In this document: in pieces, positions 3,361 to 24,477 of the stretch | Layout: every line of letters begins with the position of its first letter | Position numbering within the stretch: position 1 is the first letter of the stretch | Assembly (NCBI RefSeq): GCF_900220975.1 | Contig: NZ_OBQD01000001.1 | Coordinates: forward strand, 310,001-374,000 | Length of the DNA: 64,000 nt | Source: Rhizobium subbaraonis | Lineage (GTDB): Bacteria > Pseudomonadota > Alphaproteobacteria > Rhizobiales > Rhizobiaceae | Reading direction: 5' to 3' | The notes under the pieces: generated by a model | Seen by the model: only the letters and a program-made list of their open reading frames with translations | Database searches by the model: none | What the model was told of the DNA's origin: nothing | Position numbers and translations under genes: made by a program

Positions 3361-4440
3361 ATGACCGGAACGACAACCAGACTGCGCATCGTGGTGCTCT
3401 TCGGCGGGCGCTCGTCGGAACATGACGTGTCGGTGCTTTCCGCCACCAATGTCATGCGTGCGCTGGATCCGGCGCGGTACGACGCGGTGCCGGTGTTCGT
3501 CACCCGCGACGGGCAATGGTTGCTCAGCAGCTTTGCGAACGGCGAACTGGTAAAGCCTGCCGGCGGCACCGAGGTCTGCCTGCTGCCCGGCGGGCGAGGG
3601 CGGATGCTGGCGATACCCGCCGCCGGGCCTGCCACGGAACTGCCGAAGGCCGATATCCTGTTTCCCGTCCTGCACGGCCTTTACGGCGAGGACGGCTCGG
3701 TGCAGGGGCTGGCGGAGGTGGCGCGCGTTCCGCTGGTCGGTTGCGGTATCCTCGGTTCTGCTGTGGCGCTCGACAAGGACATCGCCAAACGGCTGATGAA
3801 CGAGGCGGGCGTGCCTGCCGCACGTTCCGTCACGATCTTTCAGGGGCAGACCCCGACCTTCGCGGAGCTCCAGCGAACGCTCGGCCTTCCGATCTTCGTC
3901 AAGCCCGCCCGGCAGGGGTCGTCCGTCGGCGTCAGCAAGGTCGAAAGCGAAGCCCAATATGAGACAGCCCTCGCCGAGGGCTTCCGGCACGATCCAAAGT
4001 TGCTGGTGGAGGAGTTCATCCGCGGCCGGGAGATTGAATGCAGCGTTCTGGAGGACGAGCGGGGCGGTCTGTTCGTCTCCCGCCCCGGCGAGATCGTGCC
4101 CGCGGCAAGCCACGGCTTCTATACCTATGACGCGAAATACATCGACGCGGACGGTGCCGCGCTGAACGTTCCGGCCGATTTGCCCGGCGACATCGAAAAG
4201 GCGCTGCGCGAGATGGCGGCAAGGGCCTTCCGCGCGGTCGGTTGCGATGGCATGGCGCGCGTGGATTTCTTCGTCAAGGCGGACGGCGGCTTCCTCGTCA
4301 ACGAGGTGAACACCATCCCCGGCTTCACCAATATCAGCATGTATCCCAAGGCGATGGAAGCAAGCGGGGTCGGCTATGCCGAACTGATAGACCGGCTGGT
4401 GGCGCACGGGCTGGCGCGCGCGGCCACGTCGGCCGCATAA
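3361..4440 (+). CDS. ddl: D-alanine--D-alanine ligase family protein
   Basis: This 359-residue ATP-grasp enzyme would join two D-alanines for peptidoglycan precursor synthesis in the cytosol. The N-terminal domain starts with VVLFGGRSSEHDVSVLSA. The substrate loop HGLYGEDG, the ATP loop ARQGSSVGVSK, the omega-loop FYTYDAKY and the C-terminal NEVNTIPGFT metal and substrate signature are all present. The Tyr-rich omega-loop suggests D-Ala-D-Ala rather than D-Ala-D-lactate specificity. It stands alone, with no mur or fts genes nearby, so it may be a second Ddl paralogue or a ligase for another D-amino acid dipeptide. Confidence 0.9.
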   Translation: MTGTTTRLRIVVLFGGRSSEHDVSVLSATNVMRALDPARYDAVPVFVTRDGQWLLSSFANGELVKPAGGTEVCLLPGGRGRMLAIPAAGPATELPKADILFPVLHGLYGEDGSVQGLAEVARVPLVGCGILGSAVALDKDIAKRLMNEAGVPAARSVTIFQGQTPTFAELQRTLGLPIFVKPARQGSSVGVSKVESEAQYETALAEGFRHDPKLLVEEFIRGREIECSVLEDERGGLFVSRPGEIVPAASHGFYTYDAKYIDADGAALNVPADLPGDIEKALREMAARAFRAVGCDGMARVDFFVKADGGFLVNEVNTIPGFTNISMYPKAMEASGVGYAELIDRLVAHGLARAATSAA

Positions 4441-4516
4441 GCACGGTGCTCGCGGGGCGAGGCCTGCTCCGGCAATTCTGTCCTTGCCGGTGCAAGCCGC
4501 AACGGCGCGTGCGCGC

Positions 4517-20879: not shown

Positions 20880-20976
20880 TAAAAAAATCGAAACGAAATC
20901 ATGTCGTTCACACGAATGACAACTGTCGATTTCATGATACTATCAAATGGCTTTGTATCAGCTATTGGGGGTTGTT

Positions 20977-21528
20977 ATGGCTGTTCAATCATCGATACCG
21001 CGCCTGTCCGAAGTGCGGGGCAAGTGGGGCTGGTTCGTCGCGCTCGGCCTTGCGCTTCTCGTCTTCGGCTTCATCGCCGCCGGCAACCTTCTGTGGGCCA
21101 CCGTCGTCACCGTCTACTATGTCGGCATGCTGATGATCATCGGCGGCGCCGTCTATCTCGCCCATGCCTTCCAGGTGAAGGCATGGAAGGACACGATCTA
21201 CTGGGTGCTGAGCGCGCTGCTCTATCTCGCCGCCGGCGTACTTGCCTTCGTCAATCCTCAACTCACCGCCAAGGTGCTGACGCTGCTCATGGCCTGGGCG
21301 CTGATCGTATCCGGCCTGTTCCGCATCTGGGTGGCAATGCGCACCCGGCCGGACGCCGGCTGGGGCTGGCTGCTGGCGGGCGGCATCGTCACCGCACTCG
21401 CGGGCCTGGTCTTCCTGATCGGCTGGCCGGTCAACAGCCTGTGGCTGCTCGGCCTGTTCCTAGCCTTCGACCTTGCCATGCAGGGCTGGGCGCTGATCGG
21501 CTTCGGCCTGGCGCTGCGCAAGGCGTGA
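20977..21528 (+). CDS. HdeD family membrane protein (DUF308)
   Basis: A 183-residue inner-membrane protein with six short hydrophobic segments in three hairpins (GWFVALGLALLVFGFIAAGNLL; YYVGMLMIIGGAVYLAHAF; YWVLSALLYLAAGVLAFVNP and so on). That is the HdeD pattern, linked in enterobacteria to acid resistance; the role here is unknown. GGGGG at 20967-20971 supports the ATG at 20977 over an in-frame ATG at 20947. It is divergent from betI, and the AT-rich gap between them holds the BetI-like site. Confidence 0.85.
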   Translation: MAVQSSIPRLSEVRGKWGWFVALGLALLVFGFIAAGNLLWATVVTVYYVGMLMIIGGAVYLAHAFQVKAWKDTIYWVLSALLYLAAGVLAFVNPQLTAKVLTLLMAWALIVSGLFRIWVAMRTRPDAGWGWLLAGGIVTALAGLVFLIGWPVNSLWLLGLFLAFDLAMQGWALIGFGLALRKA

Positions 21529-21592
21529 CGCATGGGATGGCGGTGCTGCCGTTTGACAGCGCCGCCGCTTCCGCGATAGGAAGAGCGCGTGT

Positions 21593-21645
21593 GATGGGGA
21601 TGGAGCTCCCCGACAACCGCCATAACGGCTGATAGCTCCTGCCAG
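21593..21645 (+). ncRNA. Fluoride riboswitch (crcB motif)
   Basis: The segment matches the crcB-motif aptamer. It has GGGGATGGAGCTCCCC (21596-21611), then ACAACCGCC, a short loop and GGCTGATAGCTCCTGCC. GGAGCT (21602-21607) pairs with AGCTCC in GATAGCTCC, forming the pairing that closes the aptamer, and GCC pairs with GGC around the ATAAC loop. The order and spacing follow the Thermotoga petrophila aptamer as I recall it. It ends about 95 bases before fluC. Downstream CCTGCC/GGCAGG and CTGCGG/CCGCAG complementarities could form the switching platform. Confidence 0.87.
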
Positions 21646-21739
21646 AAGGCGGACCGGAAGGTTGCCTGCGGCAGGTTTGCGTCCGCAGCCGGCCGCGGGT
21701 GTTTTCCGTTACCGCCCCATCGTGGATAAGGTAACGCAA

Positions 21740-22126
21740 ATGAACTTTCTCATCGTATTTCTCGGTGCAGGCATCGGTGGCGCGGGCCGCCATGGCGTGA
21801 ACGTTCTCGCCGCACGCCTTTTCGGCACCGGCTTTCCGGTCGGAACGCTGGCCGTCAACGTTGTCGGCTGCATGGCGATGGGCCTGGTTGCCGGTTATTT
21901 CGCCTTTCGTGGCCATCTGCCGCAGGAGATCCGGCTGCTGCTCACCACCGGTGTTCTCGGGGGCTTCACCACCTTCTCGGCCTTCGCGCTGGATGCGACG
22001 CTGCTGTGGGAGCGCGGCAATCTCGCCATGGCGGTCGCCTATGTCGTCGCAAGCGTCGTCCTGTCGCTGATCGCCGTCGTTGCCGGCCTGTTCCTGGCGC
22101 GGCTGTTCCCGGTGGCGCTGGCGTGA
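21740..22126 (+). CDS. fluC: Fluoride efflux channel
   Basis: Small four-helix membrane protein of 128 residues that forms dual-topology dimers and exports fluoride. Diagnostic stretches are GAGIGGAGRHGVN, VGTLAVNVVGCMAMGL, and GVLGGFTTFSAFALD, with the Phe-containing FTTFS pore motif. The start at 21740 follows GTAACGCAA; the frame is open further upstream but into the riboswitch leader. A fluoride riboswitch precedes it, which confirms function. Its stop overlaps the start of the EamA gene (GTGA). Also named crcB. Confidence 0.96.
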   Translation: MNFLIVFLGAGIGGAGRHGVNVLAARLFGTGFPVGTLAVNVVGCMAMGLVAGYFAFRGHLPQEIRLLLTTGVLGGFTTFSAFALDATLLWERGNLAMAVAYVVASVVLSLIAVVAGLFLARLFPVALA

Positions 22127-22560
22127 AGACGCTGCTTTTGTCCTGGCAGTTCTGGGCCGTCGGCTCGGCCATCTTCGCCGCACTCACGGCAGTCTTCGCC
22201 AAGGTCGGCATCGAGGGCGTCGGCTCGGATTTCGCTACCTTCATCCGCACCATCGTCATCCTTTGCGCGATCGCCTTCATGCTGTCGCTGAGCGGTGGCT
22301 GGCAGGCGCCATCGACGGTGACGCCCAGGAGCTGGCTGTTCCTGATCCTGTCCGGCCTCGCCACCGGTGCATCCTGGCTTTGCTATTTCCGCGCGCTCAA
22401 GCTCGGCAACGCCTCGCAGGTTGCCCCCGTCGACAAGCTGAGCGTCGTTCTCGTCGCCGCCTTCGCCGCGATCTTCCTTGGCGAGCGCCTGTCGGCGATG
22501 CACTGGCTCGCCGTCGGGCTCATCGCCACAGGTGCGGTGATGCTGACCATGAGAATATGA
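22123..22560 (+). CDS. EamA family transporter, single-domain (half-size)
   Basis: This 145-residue membrane protein has one EamA/DMT domain with five hydrophobic segments (WQFWAVGSAIFAALTAVFAKVGIEG at the start, APVDKLSVVLVAAFAAIFLGERLS near the end). Standard DMT carriers have two such domains, so it probably works as a dimer. The GTG start lies within the fluC stop (GTGA overlap), so it should be translated from the fluoride-riboswitch transcript. The frame upstream of the GTG is a shadow of fluC. Substrate unknown; a link to fluoride is inference. Confidence 0.87.
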   Translation: MKTLLLSWQFWAVGSAIFAALTAVFAKVGIEGVGSDFATFIRTIVILCAIAFMLSLSGGWQAPSTVTPRSWLFLILSGLATGASWLCYFRALKLGNASQVAPVDKLSVVLVAAFAAIFLGERLSAMHWLAVGLIATGAVMLTMRI

Positions 22561-22677
22561 TGAAATCGTCATGTAAGTGCTTGCAGTCGTTGAAGTTTCA
22601 AGAAACTGTCACATTCGGGAAACGGAATTTTCAGGATCGACAAACATGCTTCCGGCAATTCTTGTCCGGAGTCAGCA

Positions 22678-24477
22678 ATGTCCGCCGATATGCTTACCCT
22701 TCGCCGGTTCGGCGACGATCAGATCGTGACCCTCGCCAAGCTGGTCGTGGAAACGGCCTTCCAGCCGATCGTGGAAACGGCCTCCGGCGCGGTCTTCGGC
22801 TACGAGTCGCTCATGCGTGGGCACGAGCGGCTTGGCTTTTCCTCGCCGCTCCATCTTCTCGACCGTGCCCACGAGGCGGGGCAGTTGCTTGCGCTGGAGC
22901 ACATGGTCACCAGCCGTGCGCTGGCGGCCTTCGCGACACTGCCCGACTTCGCCAGCCGGACCCTGTTCGTCAACCTCGACTCCCGCCTTATCACGCAGGC
23001 GGGCGATATCGTGGAGCGCCTGTCGAGCCACCTCAAGCGCGCCGGCATCCCTGCCTCGTCCATCTGCTTCGAGATCTCCGAGCGCTTCGATCACAGCGAT
23101 GTGCCGGATTTCGGGGTGCTGATGGCGCGGCTGCGCCAGGAAGGGTTCAAGCTGGCCGTCGACGATTTCGGCGCCGGCCACAGCGGCATGAAGGTGCTCT
23201 GCGATCATCCGATCGACTACCTGAAGATCGATCGGCACTTCATCTCCGGCCTGGAGGCGGATGCCCGCAAGCGCCATCTGGTCAAGAACATGGTCAACGT
23301 CTCCCATGTGCTCGGCATCCGGGTGATTGCCGAGGGCGTGGAGACGGAGGCGGAATTCGTCGCCTGCCGTGATGCTGGCTGCGATCTCGTGCAGGGCTGG
23401 TACATCTCCCGTCCGCAGACGGACATGTCGGCGTTGCAGCCGGTCTATACGCCCATTGCACGGGCTGCCGCCGGGCGGCGCAATTCGCCGTCGCTCGACA
23501 GCATCCTCATCCGCCGCCAGATCGAGCACCTCCCGGCCGTACACGAGGCCGACAGCCTGGAGTCCGTGTTCGAGTTGTTCCGCAAGGATCCGAAGCGCAC
23601 CTTCTTCCCCGTCCTGAACGCCAACGACGAGCCGCGCGGCATCCTGCACGAGTATCATGTTCGCGAGCTGAGCTATCATCCCTTCGGCCGCGACCTCCTG
23701 AAGAACAGGCTGTACCAGAAGAGCCTCTCGCATTTCGCCAAGATGGCTCCGGTCGCCGACCTGGAGACGCCGGCCGAGCAGCTTCTGAACATCTTCGCCG
23801 ACATGGGCGGCAGCGAATGCGTGATCCTGACGGAAAACATGCGCTATGCCGGCATCCTGAGTGCCTCGTCGCTGCTCAAGATCATCAGCGAGAAGCAACT
23901 GAAGGCGGCGGAGGACCAGAACCCGCTCACCGGCCTGCTCGGCAACCGCTCGATCCATGAGTATCTGCAGGACCGGGCGCTGGACGGCGACCAACTGCGC
24001 TGCTTCTGCTACTTCGACTTCGACAACTTCAAACCCTTCAACGATCATTACGGCTTCCAGATGGGGGATCGCGCGATTCTTCTGTTCGCCTCGCTGCTGC
24101 GCCGCCACTTCATCGGCGACGACGTGTTCATCGGCCATCTCGGCGGGGATGATTTCTTCGCCGGCATCTCGGGGCGCGACGTCGCCGCGGTGGAGCAACT
24201 GCTGCAGCGGCTTCTGGGCGATTTCACCCGCGAGGCCCGCCAGCTTTATGCGCCGGAGGATCTGCAGGCAGAAGGTATCAGGGGGCATGACCGCGACGGC
24301 AATGCCCGCAACTTTCCGCTGATGCGCTGCTCGGCGGTCGTTCTCGTCGTAGGCGAAGGGGATCTCGTCGCCGATCCCCAGCAGATCAGCGCCCGCATCG
24401 CAACGCTCAAGAGCCAGGCCAAGCTTAGTGCCAACGGCGTCGTGCTGTGTTCGGTAGAGATGCGCGAGGCCGCCTGA
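22678..24477 (+). CDS. EAL-CBS-GGDEF protein (cyclic-di-GMP metabolism)
   Basis: A 599-residue soluble protein with an N-terminal EAL phosphodiesterase domain at about residues 20-260. ESL (residues 43-45) replaces EAL, and the metal and catalytic residues follow: NLDSRL, EISERF, DDFGAG, KIDRHFI and EGVETEAE. A CBS pair follows at about 280-400 (LPAVHEADSLESVFELF, FFPVLNANDEPRGILHE). The C-terminal GGDEF domain (NPLTGLLGN, FDFDNFKPFNDHYGFQMGD) has GGDDF in place of GGDEF. The phosphodiesterase is probably active; the cyclase half may be weak or regulatory. A terminator follows. Confidence 0.88.
   Translation: MSADMLTLRRFGDDQIVTLAKLVVETAFQPIVETASGAVFGYESLMRGHERLGFSSPLHLLDRAHEAGQLLALEHMVTSRALAAFATLPDFASRTLFVNLDSRLITQAGDIVERLSSHLKRAGIPASSICFEISERFDHSDVPDFGVLMARLRQEGFKLAVDDFGAGHSGMKVLCDHPIDYLKIDRHFISGLEADARKRHLVKNMVNVSHVLGIRVIAEGVETEAEFVACRDAGCDLVQGWYISRPQTDMSALQPVYTPIARAAAGRRNSPSLDSILIRRQIEHLPAVHEADSLESVFELFRKDPKRTFFPVLNANDEPRGILHEYHVRELSYHPFGRDLLKNRLYQKSLSHFAKMAPVADLETPAEQLLNIFADMGGSECVILTENMRYAGILSASSLLKIISEKQLKAAEDQNPLTGLLGNRSIHEYLQDRALDGDQLRCFCYFDFDNFKPFNDHYGFQMGDRAILLFASLLRRHFIGDDVFIGHLGGDDFFAGISGRDVAAVEQLLQRLLGDFTREARQLYAPEDLQAEGIRGHDRDGNARNFPLMRCSAVVLVVGEGDLVADPQQISARIATLKSQAKLSANGVVLCSVEMREAA

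Follow-up and report, generated by a model that had tools for sequence, protein, structure and literature searches.

The single-domain EamA transporter gene that overlaps fluC behind a predicted fluoride riboswitch in Rhizobium subbaraonis looks, on sequence comparison, like a recurrent and transferable companion of riboswitch-controlled fluoride exporters, a role that would involve only a small part of the EamA family. We assign a probability of roughly 0.6 to the overall reading that this locus, which lies within a stretch of 64,000 nucleotides analysed here as a whole (hereafter, the window), combines a fluoride-switched fluC with an accessory EamA carrier that would correct a side effect of fluoride.

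A cmscan search placed the aptamer of a fluoride riboswitch (RF01734, the crcB RNA motif) at positions 21587-21648 of the forward strand, with a score of 51.9 bits against a gathering threshold of 34 (E 1.7e-11) and an alignment that spans the whole model (1-64 of 64). This was the sole Rfam match at gathering threshold in the entire 64 kb window, and a search of the 6.58 Mb genome at E<=0.001 turned up no other fluoride aptamer. A first-pass annotation of this DNA had recognized the crcB-motif fluoride aptamer in the leader; the motifs quoted in its favor are present in the sequence, and the search with the covariance model of the fluoride riboswitch family, which it had recommended, yielded the match above gathering score just described, confirming the prediction of a fluoride riboswitch ahead of fluC and EamA. 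The span proposed for the entire unit ended correctly at 22560; its start, at 21593, cuts six bases off the aptamer.

Positions 21649-21739 of the forward strand form a probable expression platform, as judged from a terminator pattern scan, a pairing scan, leader alignments and the fold. At about 21669-21681, this segment is complementary to the 3' arm of the aptamer; it also contains a hairpin resembling a terminator, followed by a short U run (21679-21702 plus tail), and a further hairpin that surrounds the ribosome-binding region, in which GTTACC near 21709 can pair with GGTAAC near 21731. The pattern scan of 21500-22720 gave three terminator-like sites, where shuffled sequences had a mean of 1.5; the fold of 21587-21760 has a z of -1.72, and no match to a sigma-70-like promoter was found in 21500-22720. 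The aptamer was aligned with 35 others, and our own covariance model was built from the 36; 3' of the aptamer, the leader varies between groups. In the leaders of L011, L041, L080 and some others, a GC-rich hairpin with six U behind it has the shape of an intrinsic terminator, and in L011, the aptamer 3' arm, GCUCCUGCC, can pair with the segment directly before the terminator hairpin, GGCGGGAGC. Five of 14 leaders (L011, L014, L041, L080 and L070) show such pairing better than composition-matched shuffles do (p<0.02, uncorrected for 14 tests); in the remaining nine, it was not better than shuffles at this level. In L041, a single case read by eye, the 5' arm, the 3' arm and the downstream segment are all altered with both alternative pairings kept, which fits a switch whose 3' arm would alternate between a partner within the fluoride-bound aptamer and the downstream segment. 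For the window's own leader, pairing of the 3' arm with the downstream segment was no better than in shuffles (p 0.23); a clear terminator switch was considered here and rejected, its parts being present but weaker than in the relatives, and alternative control by the hairpin around the ribosome-binding region is possible.

The first gene behind this leader, fluC (crcB; 21740-22126, forward strand), encodes a Fluc fluoride channel of 128 amino acids: the protein matches Pfam CRCB at 92.9 bits and, among the 25 NCBIfam models listed, exceeds the cut-offs of three equivalog models, all for fluoride-exporter CrcB, namely, NF010794 (156.7 bits versus 125), NF010791 and TIGR00494 (97.8 versus 80.45), which together place it in the Fluc/CrcB channel family. 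The EamA gene (22123-22560, forward strand, 145 amino acids) begins, as had been proposed, inside the fluC stop codon, its GTG start at 22123-22125 overlapping the TGA at 22124-22126 such that the two genes share 4 nt. Its product is a member of EamA (PF00892; 80.5 bits against a gathering cut-off of 28.2) and is half-size, again in agreement with the original proposal, with one EamA domain, at residues 7-142 of 145, in place of two per chain. Downstream, 117 nt 3' of EamA and on the same strand, lies a gene for a protein with Pfam EAL, CBS and GGDEF domains (22678-24477), a possible further member of the transcript; the terminator pattern scan found no terminator-like site between the two genes. 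Just upstream of the riboswitch-fluC-EamA unit, a gene on the forward strand (20947-21528) encodes an HdeD-like membrane protein (Pfam DUF308, 76.9 bits).

Within the genus, the aptamer was found in all seven genomes and EamA follows fluC in six, the seventh (L003) having riboswitch and fluC without EamA. The sample of the family comprised 247 genomes, with the aptamer in 40 at E<=0.001 (35 of these over the cut-off), EamA in 99 (E<=1e-25) and fluC in 235 (E<=1e-10). By coordinates among the fluC matches listed, EamA lies directly after fluC in at least 14 of the 247 genomes, from nine genera (G000, G002, G003, G222, G080, G161, G017, G062, G015, G118, G208, G156, G241 and G244). The aptamer is upstream in 13 of these 14, below the cut-off in G080, and in three (G015, G118 and G208) it leads a CLC-type gene that precedes fluC; in G161, no aptamer was found upstream of fluC-EamA even with our own covariance model. 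In the branch represented by G080 and G161 (L182/L183), the aptamer is low-scoring (29.1 bits) or not found, with the fluC and EamA frames open, a picture suggestive of a switch in decay. G169 would be a fifteenth genome: behind its aptamer lie what appear to be broken remnants of fluC and EamA. The other 85 of the 99 EamA-bearing family genomes show no directly upstream fluC among the fluC matches listed. In a separate observation, G136 (L124, L125 and L126; contigs C17 and C13) carries 10 fluoride riboswitch matches, one below the cut-off, nine of them on one contig at 15-44 kb, along with an enolase relative and with fluC-like and dehydratase-like genes named by eye, an array that we call a large fluoride island.

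The HdeD-like gene stands beside fluC-EamA, or beside EamA alone, in many loci of Rhizobiaceae and hence appears to be part of a conserved neighborhood, its membership in the operon being possible rather than proven; acid stress and the entry of HF could tie it to fluC-EamA. There is no fluC at L010, L025, L034 or L012; the first three have a betI-like regulator, named by eye, on one side of EamA and the HdeD and EAL genes on the other, and the fourth has EamA ahead of its HdeD and EAL genes. Given that EamA, at the corresponding chromosomal site, adjoins HdeD without fluC in several Rhizobium relatives, EamA may predate fluC as a neighbor here.

Beyond the family, the EamA protein was used to scan one genome per species across 84,980 species, and the best 80 of at least 580 relatives were analysed. 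With our own covariance model, a riboswitch was detected upstream of EamA in nine of these 80, with fluC in between in eight (L008, L009, L011, L014, L041, L057, L070 and L080) and a CLC-type gene in the ninth, an Ancylobacter (L022); the other 71 have no riboswitch within the flanks examined, some of which are short. In L072, where there is no riboswitch, a distant relative of fluC lies two genes upstream of EamA. A member of Methylobacteriaceae (L036:5001-6629) has an enolase relative about 90 nt 3' of EamA on the same strand, with no convincing riboswitch (best E 0.79). A check of breadth drew on 65 genomes with riboswitches over the cut-off from class- and phylum-wide samples, none of them in the family sample and 64 from outside the family: 15 encode EamA at E<=1e-12, and in one, G708, from the same order, EamA is near the aptamer, 473 nt after it, which leaves room for fluC. 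With one such case among 65 riboswitch genomes beyond the family sample, a phylum-wide link between riboswitch and EamA is not supported.

EamA occurs in 61 records of a plasmid collection at E<=1e-20, and we read 29 places in 28 records, the first 18 picked in part for a named crcB or an interesting source, several of these being near-alike Agrobacterium plasmids, and the last 11 from rows without a named crcB. A riboswitch is present at 16 of the 29, that is, 15 of the first 18 and one of the last 11. The riboswitch-fluC-EamA stretch of G241 recurs at 99.9% identity on Novosphingobium plasmid pSA3 and Aminobacter plasmid pUSP5 (over 1512 and 997 of its 1551 bases, respectively); in both plasmids, the cassette adjoins a TraA relaxase gene, and in pUSP5, the likeness ends just before the end of EamA, with a recombinase and a Tn3-family transposase next. 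The cassette was also seen near-unchanged across the Novosphingobium and Aminobacter plasmids and contigs of two genera of the family (L184, L185, L131 and L133), with a chromate exporter gene annotated near it in L185.

Elsewhere among the plasmids, the composition of the clusters varies. Agrobacterium plasmids have riboswitch, CLC, fluC and EamA, accompanied in places by NhaA, enolase, universal stress protein (USP) and arsenic genes; pSinB has riboswitch, CLC and EamA, with fluC absent; and Sphingomonas clusters contain CLC, DUF190, phosphatase and USP genes, one of them also phosphoglycerate mutase and enolase. A plasmid of the betaproteobacterium Comamonas is among the riboswitch-EamA places as well, and in L197, a riboswitch leads an EamA cluster with neither exporter annotated in the stretch read. 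Gluconobacter plasmid pGOX1 (L195) carries two back-to-back riboswitches (4139-4199 and 4377-4442), one ahead of a USP gene and the other ahead of crcB-EamA; a riboswitch of this plasmid also appears in a published table, in the available part of that article (PMC5756330). The CLC proteins of L187, L190 and L196 carry GNNLI, GREGT and GEVTP, which the accessible text of PMC11139923 gives as signatures of the fluoride-specific CLC-F type. A DUF190 domain was found at the C end of the riboswitch-led CLC in L187 and L176 (Pfam) and L193 (annotation), and separate DUF190 genes adjoin the CLC gene in L196, L201 and L237. On pSinA (L189:5001-5390) and on a plasmid of Rhizobium sp. Q54 (L194:5001-5406), the EamA frame has been lost, apparently in a like manner, with enolase and USP genes near. 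Other EamA half-carriers lie where no fluoride gene is annotated, beside two-component genes on TniB/TniQ elements in L191 and L236, the former also with an undecaprenyl-diphosphatase gene, and beside PAP2 phosphatase genes in L240.

The survey of relatives suggested by the first-pass annotation accordingly showed that EamA follows fluC in at least nine family genera as well as in other orders and on plasmids, in most cases behind a riboswitch, such that a pairing peculiar to this strain, the outcome that would have spoken against its proposal, is contradicted. The pairing of fluC with EamA is supported; as a view of the association, it proved too narrow, EamA also being found behind CLC-F-type exporters with no fluC between. 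We considered, and rejected, the notion that EamA is tied to fluC alone, given that L190, L193 and L022 each combine a riboswitch, a CLC-F-type exporter and EamA without an intervening fluC. Because the link of EamA persists with fluC alone, with a CLC-F-type exporter and fluC, or with a CLC-F-type exporter alone, it appears to be a link to the fluoride regulon and not to fluC itself. As expected of a recurrent gene of that regulon, a riboswitch or exporter stands upstream in several unrelated backgrounds (nine of the best 80 relatives, at least 14 of 247 family genomes and 16 of 29 plasmid places).

The phylogeny of EamA bears on whether this association arose once. From 131 loci with an EamA match, 18 were removed by hand as second copies and identical and short sequences by script, leaving 109 in a tree built on 144 columns, with many forks unresolved. 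The 33 fluoride-linked rows (a riboswitch in 32, and fluC without one in L183) require at least 12 state changes on this tree, of which well-supported branches alone force four, and a single clade of the 33 linked rows, a group defined from context, was rejected (p-AU 3.5e-62), a test that leaves gene loss, gene transfer and repeated capture undistinguished. Judging by this alignment, EamA proteins with a fluoride link fall into more than one clade. Two rows labelled unlinked, L188 and L194, have USP as a neighbor, together with a short CrcB-family gene or with enolase. The window's branch, 14 linked rows, is a supported group, with nearest relatives that include L010, L012, L025 and L034 at a weak fork. 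Among the 109 aligned rows, a scan with a threshold that we set ourselves gave no clear residue signature of the fluoride-linked proteins; position 70 alone differs in its majority letter, S versus T.

The AlphaFold2 model of the EamA protein (pLDDT 89.7) has five long helices (8-28, 35-57, 68-94, 97-118 and 125-142). A structure search returned the choline importer LicB as the best match (Z 10.7 over 125 residues, 1.5 A, 18% identity), followed by 5i20, which we take to be YddG (Z 8.0, 139 residues), the human carrier SLC35B1 and nucleotide-sugar carriers. The window protein shares the fold of these DMT carriers (Z 10.7 and 10.3 for the LicB chains 7b0k and 7paf), differing from LicB and 5i20 in being half their size, with one domain; the model and the Z scores identify a five-helix DMT repeat, with the qualification that helical bundles easily give middling Z. 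In length, five helices and single domain, it is the same as the group of bacterial and archaeal 5-TMS DMT transporters, presumably COG2510-like, for which we know of no fluoride role. Half-size DMT carriers are thought to pair in opposite orientation; in the window protein, charged residues at the helix ends, read from the sequence, have no strong one-sided bias. K27, R42, R90, D104, K105 and E121 are each kept in 107-109 of 109 rows, and D36 is nearly as conserved.

Profile comparison points, weakly, to the NIPA magnesium transporters (PF05653; 9z6n and 9z7s). In the PDB, the family profile matches the Mg2+ transporter NIPA2 best by sequence (E 2.6e-4), with 5i20 behind it (0.12); the NIPA similarity covers profile positions 79-140. 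Besides EamA, Pfam NIPA is the sole model with a match at E<=1 to every one of the 50 aligned members (3.6e-7 for the best), the members being relatives and not 50 separate observations, and one of 10 control EamA domains of this genome, taken from the 39 others listed, matches NIPA at that level. The window protein by itself scores 16.5 bits, below the NIPA gathering cut-off of 26.2, and its E value (0.0051) is no better than that of the one control domain (0.0033). It is about one-third the length of NIPA2 (392 amino acids), and the alignment shows no counterpart of its D104-K105 pair. NIPA2 was not among the chains listed in the structure search, which does not count against a NIPA relation.

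In the reading that we favor, fluoride, together with Mg2+, would bind the aptamer and keep its pseudoknot, and the bound aptamer would permit transcription or translation of fluC and EamA to proceed, such that channel and carrier would be produced together. FluC would pass fluoride out of the cell. EamA, a five-helix half DMT transporter that probably acts as a homodimer of oppositely oriented copies, would assist fluoride resistance as an accessory rather than serve as the main exporter, and would mend a side effect of fluoride. Its likeliest cargo might be a divalent cation, Mg2+ first, which fluoride complexes. That EamA moves Mg2+ or another divalent cation is a tentative proposition, which we consider possible and hold weakly, on the grounds of the NIPA similarity, one place where EamA overlaps a corA gene, and the comment in PMC11139923 that operons with fluoride exporters contain transporters for divalent cations more often than expected. 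A general CorA-EamA operon was considered and rejected, with one place among all loci examined. Some EamA fluoride clusters also contain enolase, USP or NhaA genes, kinds of gene that the accessible parts of PMC11139923 or PMC5533749 link to fluoride. A fuller scenario, with a half-size NIPA-related DMT carrier that serves as a fluoride-induced transporter of Mg2+ or metal-fluoride, a third transport arm recruited several times and carried between orders in a plasmid-borne riboswitch-fluC-EamA cassette, seems rather unlikely as a whole. With 71 of the best 80 relatives lacking a riboswitch and 85 of 99 family genomes lacking a listed upstream fluC, the basic role of the EamA family is probably not related to fluoride.

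Other explanations for the association differ in what EamA is supposed to carry. The first-pass annotation had put forward three candidate cargoes, namely, fluoride, a fluoride-metal complex or a fluoride-affected metabolite. It might move a phosphorylated or other anionic metabolite that accumulates when fluoride inhibits enolase, phosphoglycerate mutase or phosphatases, a view in keeping with the enolase, phosphoglycerate mutase and PAP2- or phosphodiesterase-type genes near EamA in fluoride clusters, with the conserved K27, R42, R90 and K105, which would suit an anionic cargo, and with the DMT superfamily, which includes triose-phosphate carriers. The acidic D104 and E121 are, however, as conserved as the basic residues, D36 nearly so, and the triose-phosphate transporter family is absent among the 25 listed of the 41 Pfam families matched by the members, and we consider such a cargo unlikely. 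The presence of EamA behind riboswitches with fluC alone, with a CLC-F-type exporter alone or with both, and the L197 cluster without either annotated exporter, would also agree with EamA itself exporting fluoride, HF or metal-fluoride, as a third kind beside Fluc and CLC-F. We find this improbable: apart from L197, a dedicated exporter is present in the riboswitch-led places read, so that fluoride export by EamA would not be required; a nearby riboswitch is absent for most near relatives; and the proteins matched by fold transport choline, nucleotide sugars and nucleotides.

Alternatively, EamA could be a chance neighbor, a gene of the betI-HdeD-EAL neighborhood, with a role in, for example, choline or osmolyte transport, in front of which riboswitch and fluC happened to land. 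The arrangements without fluC in L010, L025, L034 and L012 agree with this, as does the choline importer LicB as best fold match, although a DMT fold match names no substrate. The link has been remade in other orders and on plasmids, with different exporters, and the stretches read there name no bet gene; in addition, a single insertion does not explain both the HdeD-fluC-EamA and the EamA-HdeD orders. A chance origin thus appears quite unlikely, and a fluoride-switched channel with an accessory carrier remains the reading that we prefer.

Compared with known systems, the window is the same as fluoride riboswitch (RF01734)-crcB/fluC units in aptamer sequence, pairing and position ahead of fluC, and adds a second, overlapping half-size EamA gene. 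The fluoride-resistance operon of Enterobacter cloacae FRM, located on a genomic island, comprises ppaC, uspA, eno, gpmA, crcB and orf5249 and resembles the window in having a riboswitch-led crcB with accessory genes; the available part of that paper names no EamA, DMT or membrane protein, whereas the window combines crcB with EamA (PMC5533749). A search of the open literature, which did not extend to the gene lists in the papers that first described the riboswitch, found no report of EamA in fluoride resistance. A 2012 paper reportedly gave such lists, and EamA may already stand in its supplement. In the accessible text of PMC7266159, EamA is mentioned for ykkC subtype 2d RNAs only. The locus accordingly joins a riboswitch and a channel of known kinds to a carrier for which we found no description in such a role.

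Fluoride riboswitches have revealed fluoride-resistance genes by way of neighboring genes. With 145 residues and a suspected role that could be switched by a single ion, the EamA protein may offer an unusually simple route to the cargo of a half-size DMT carrier. A small carrier that recurs behind such switches with either exporter, and that moves on plasmids, would be a direct candidate for a missing function in fluoride resistance.
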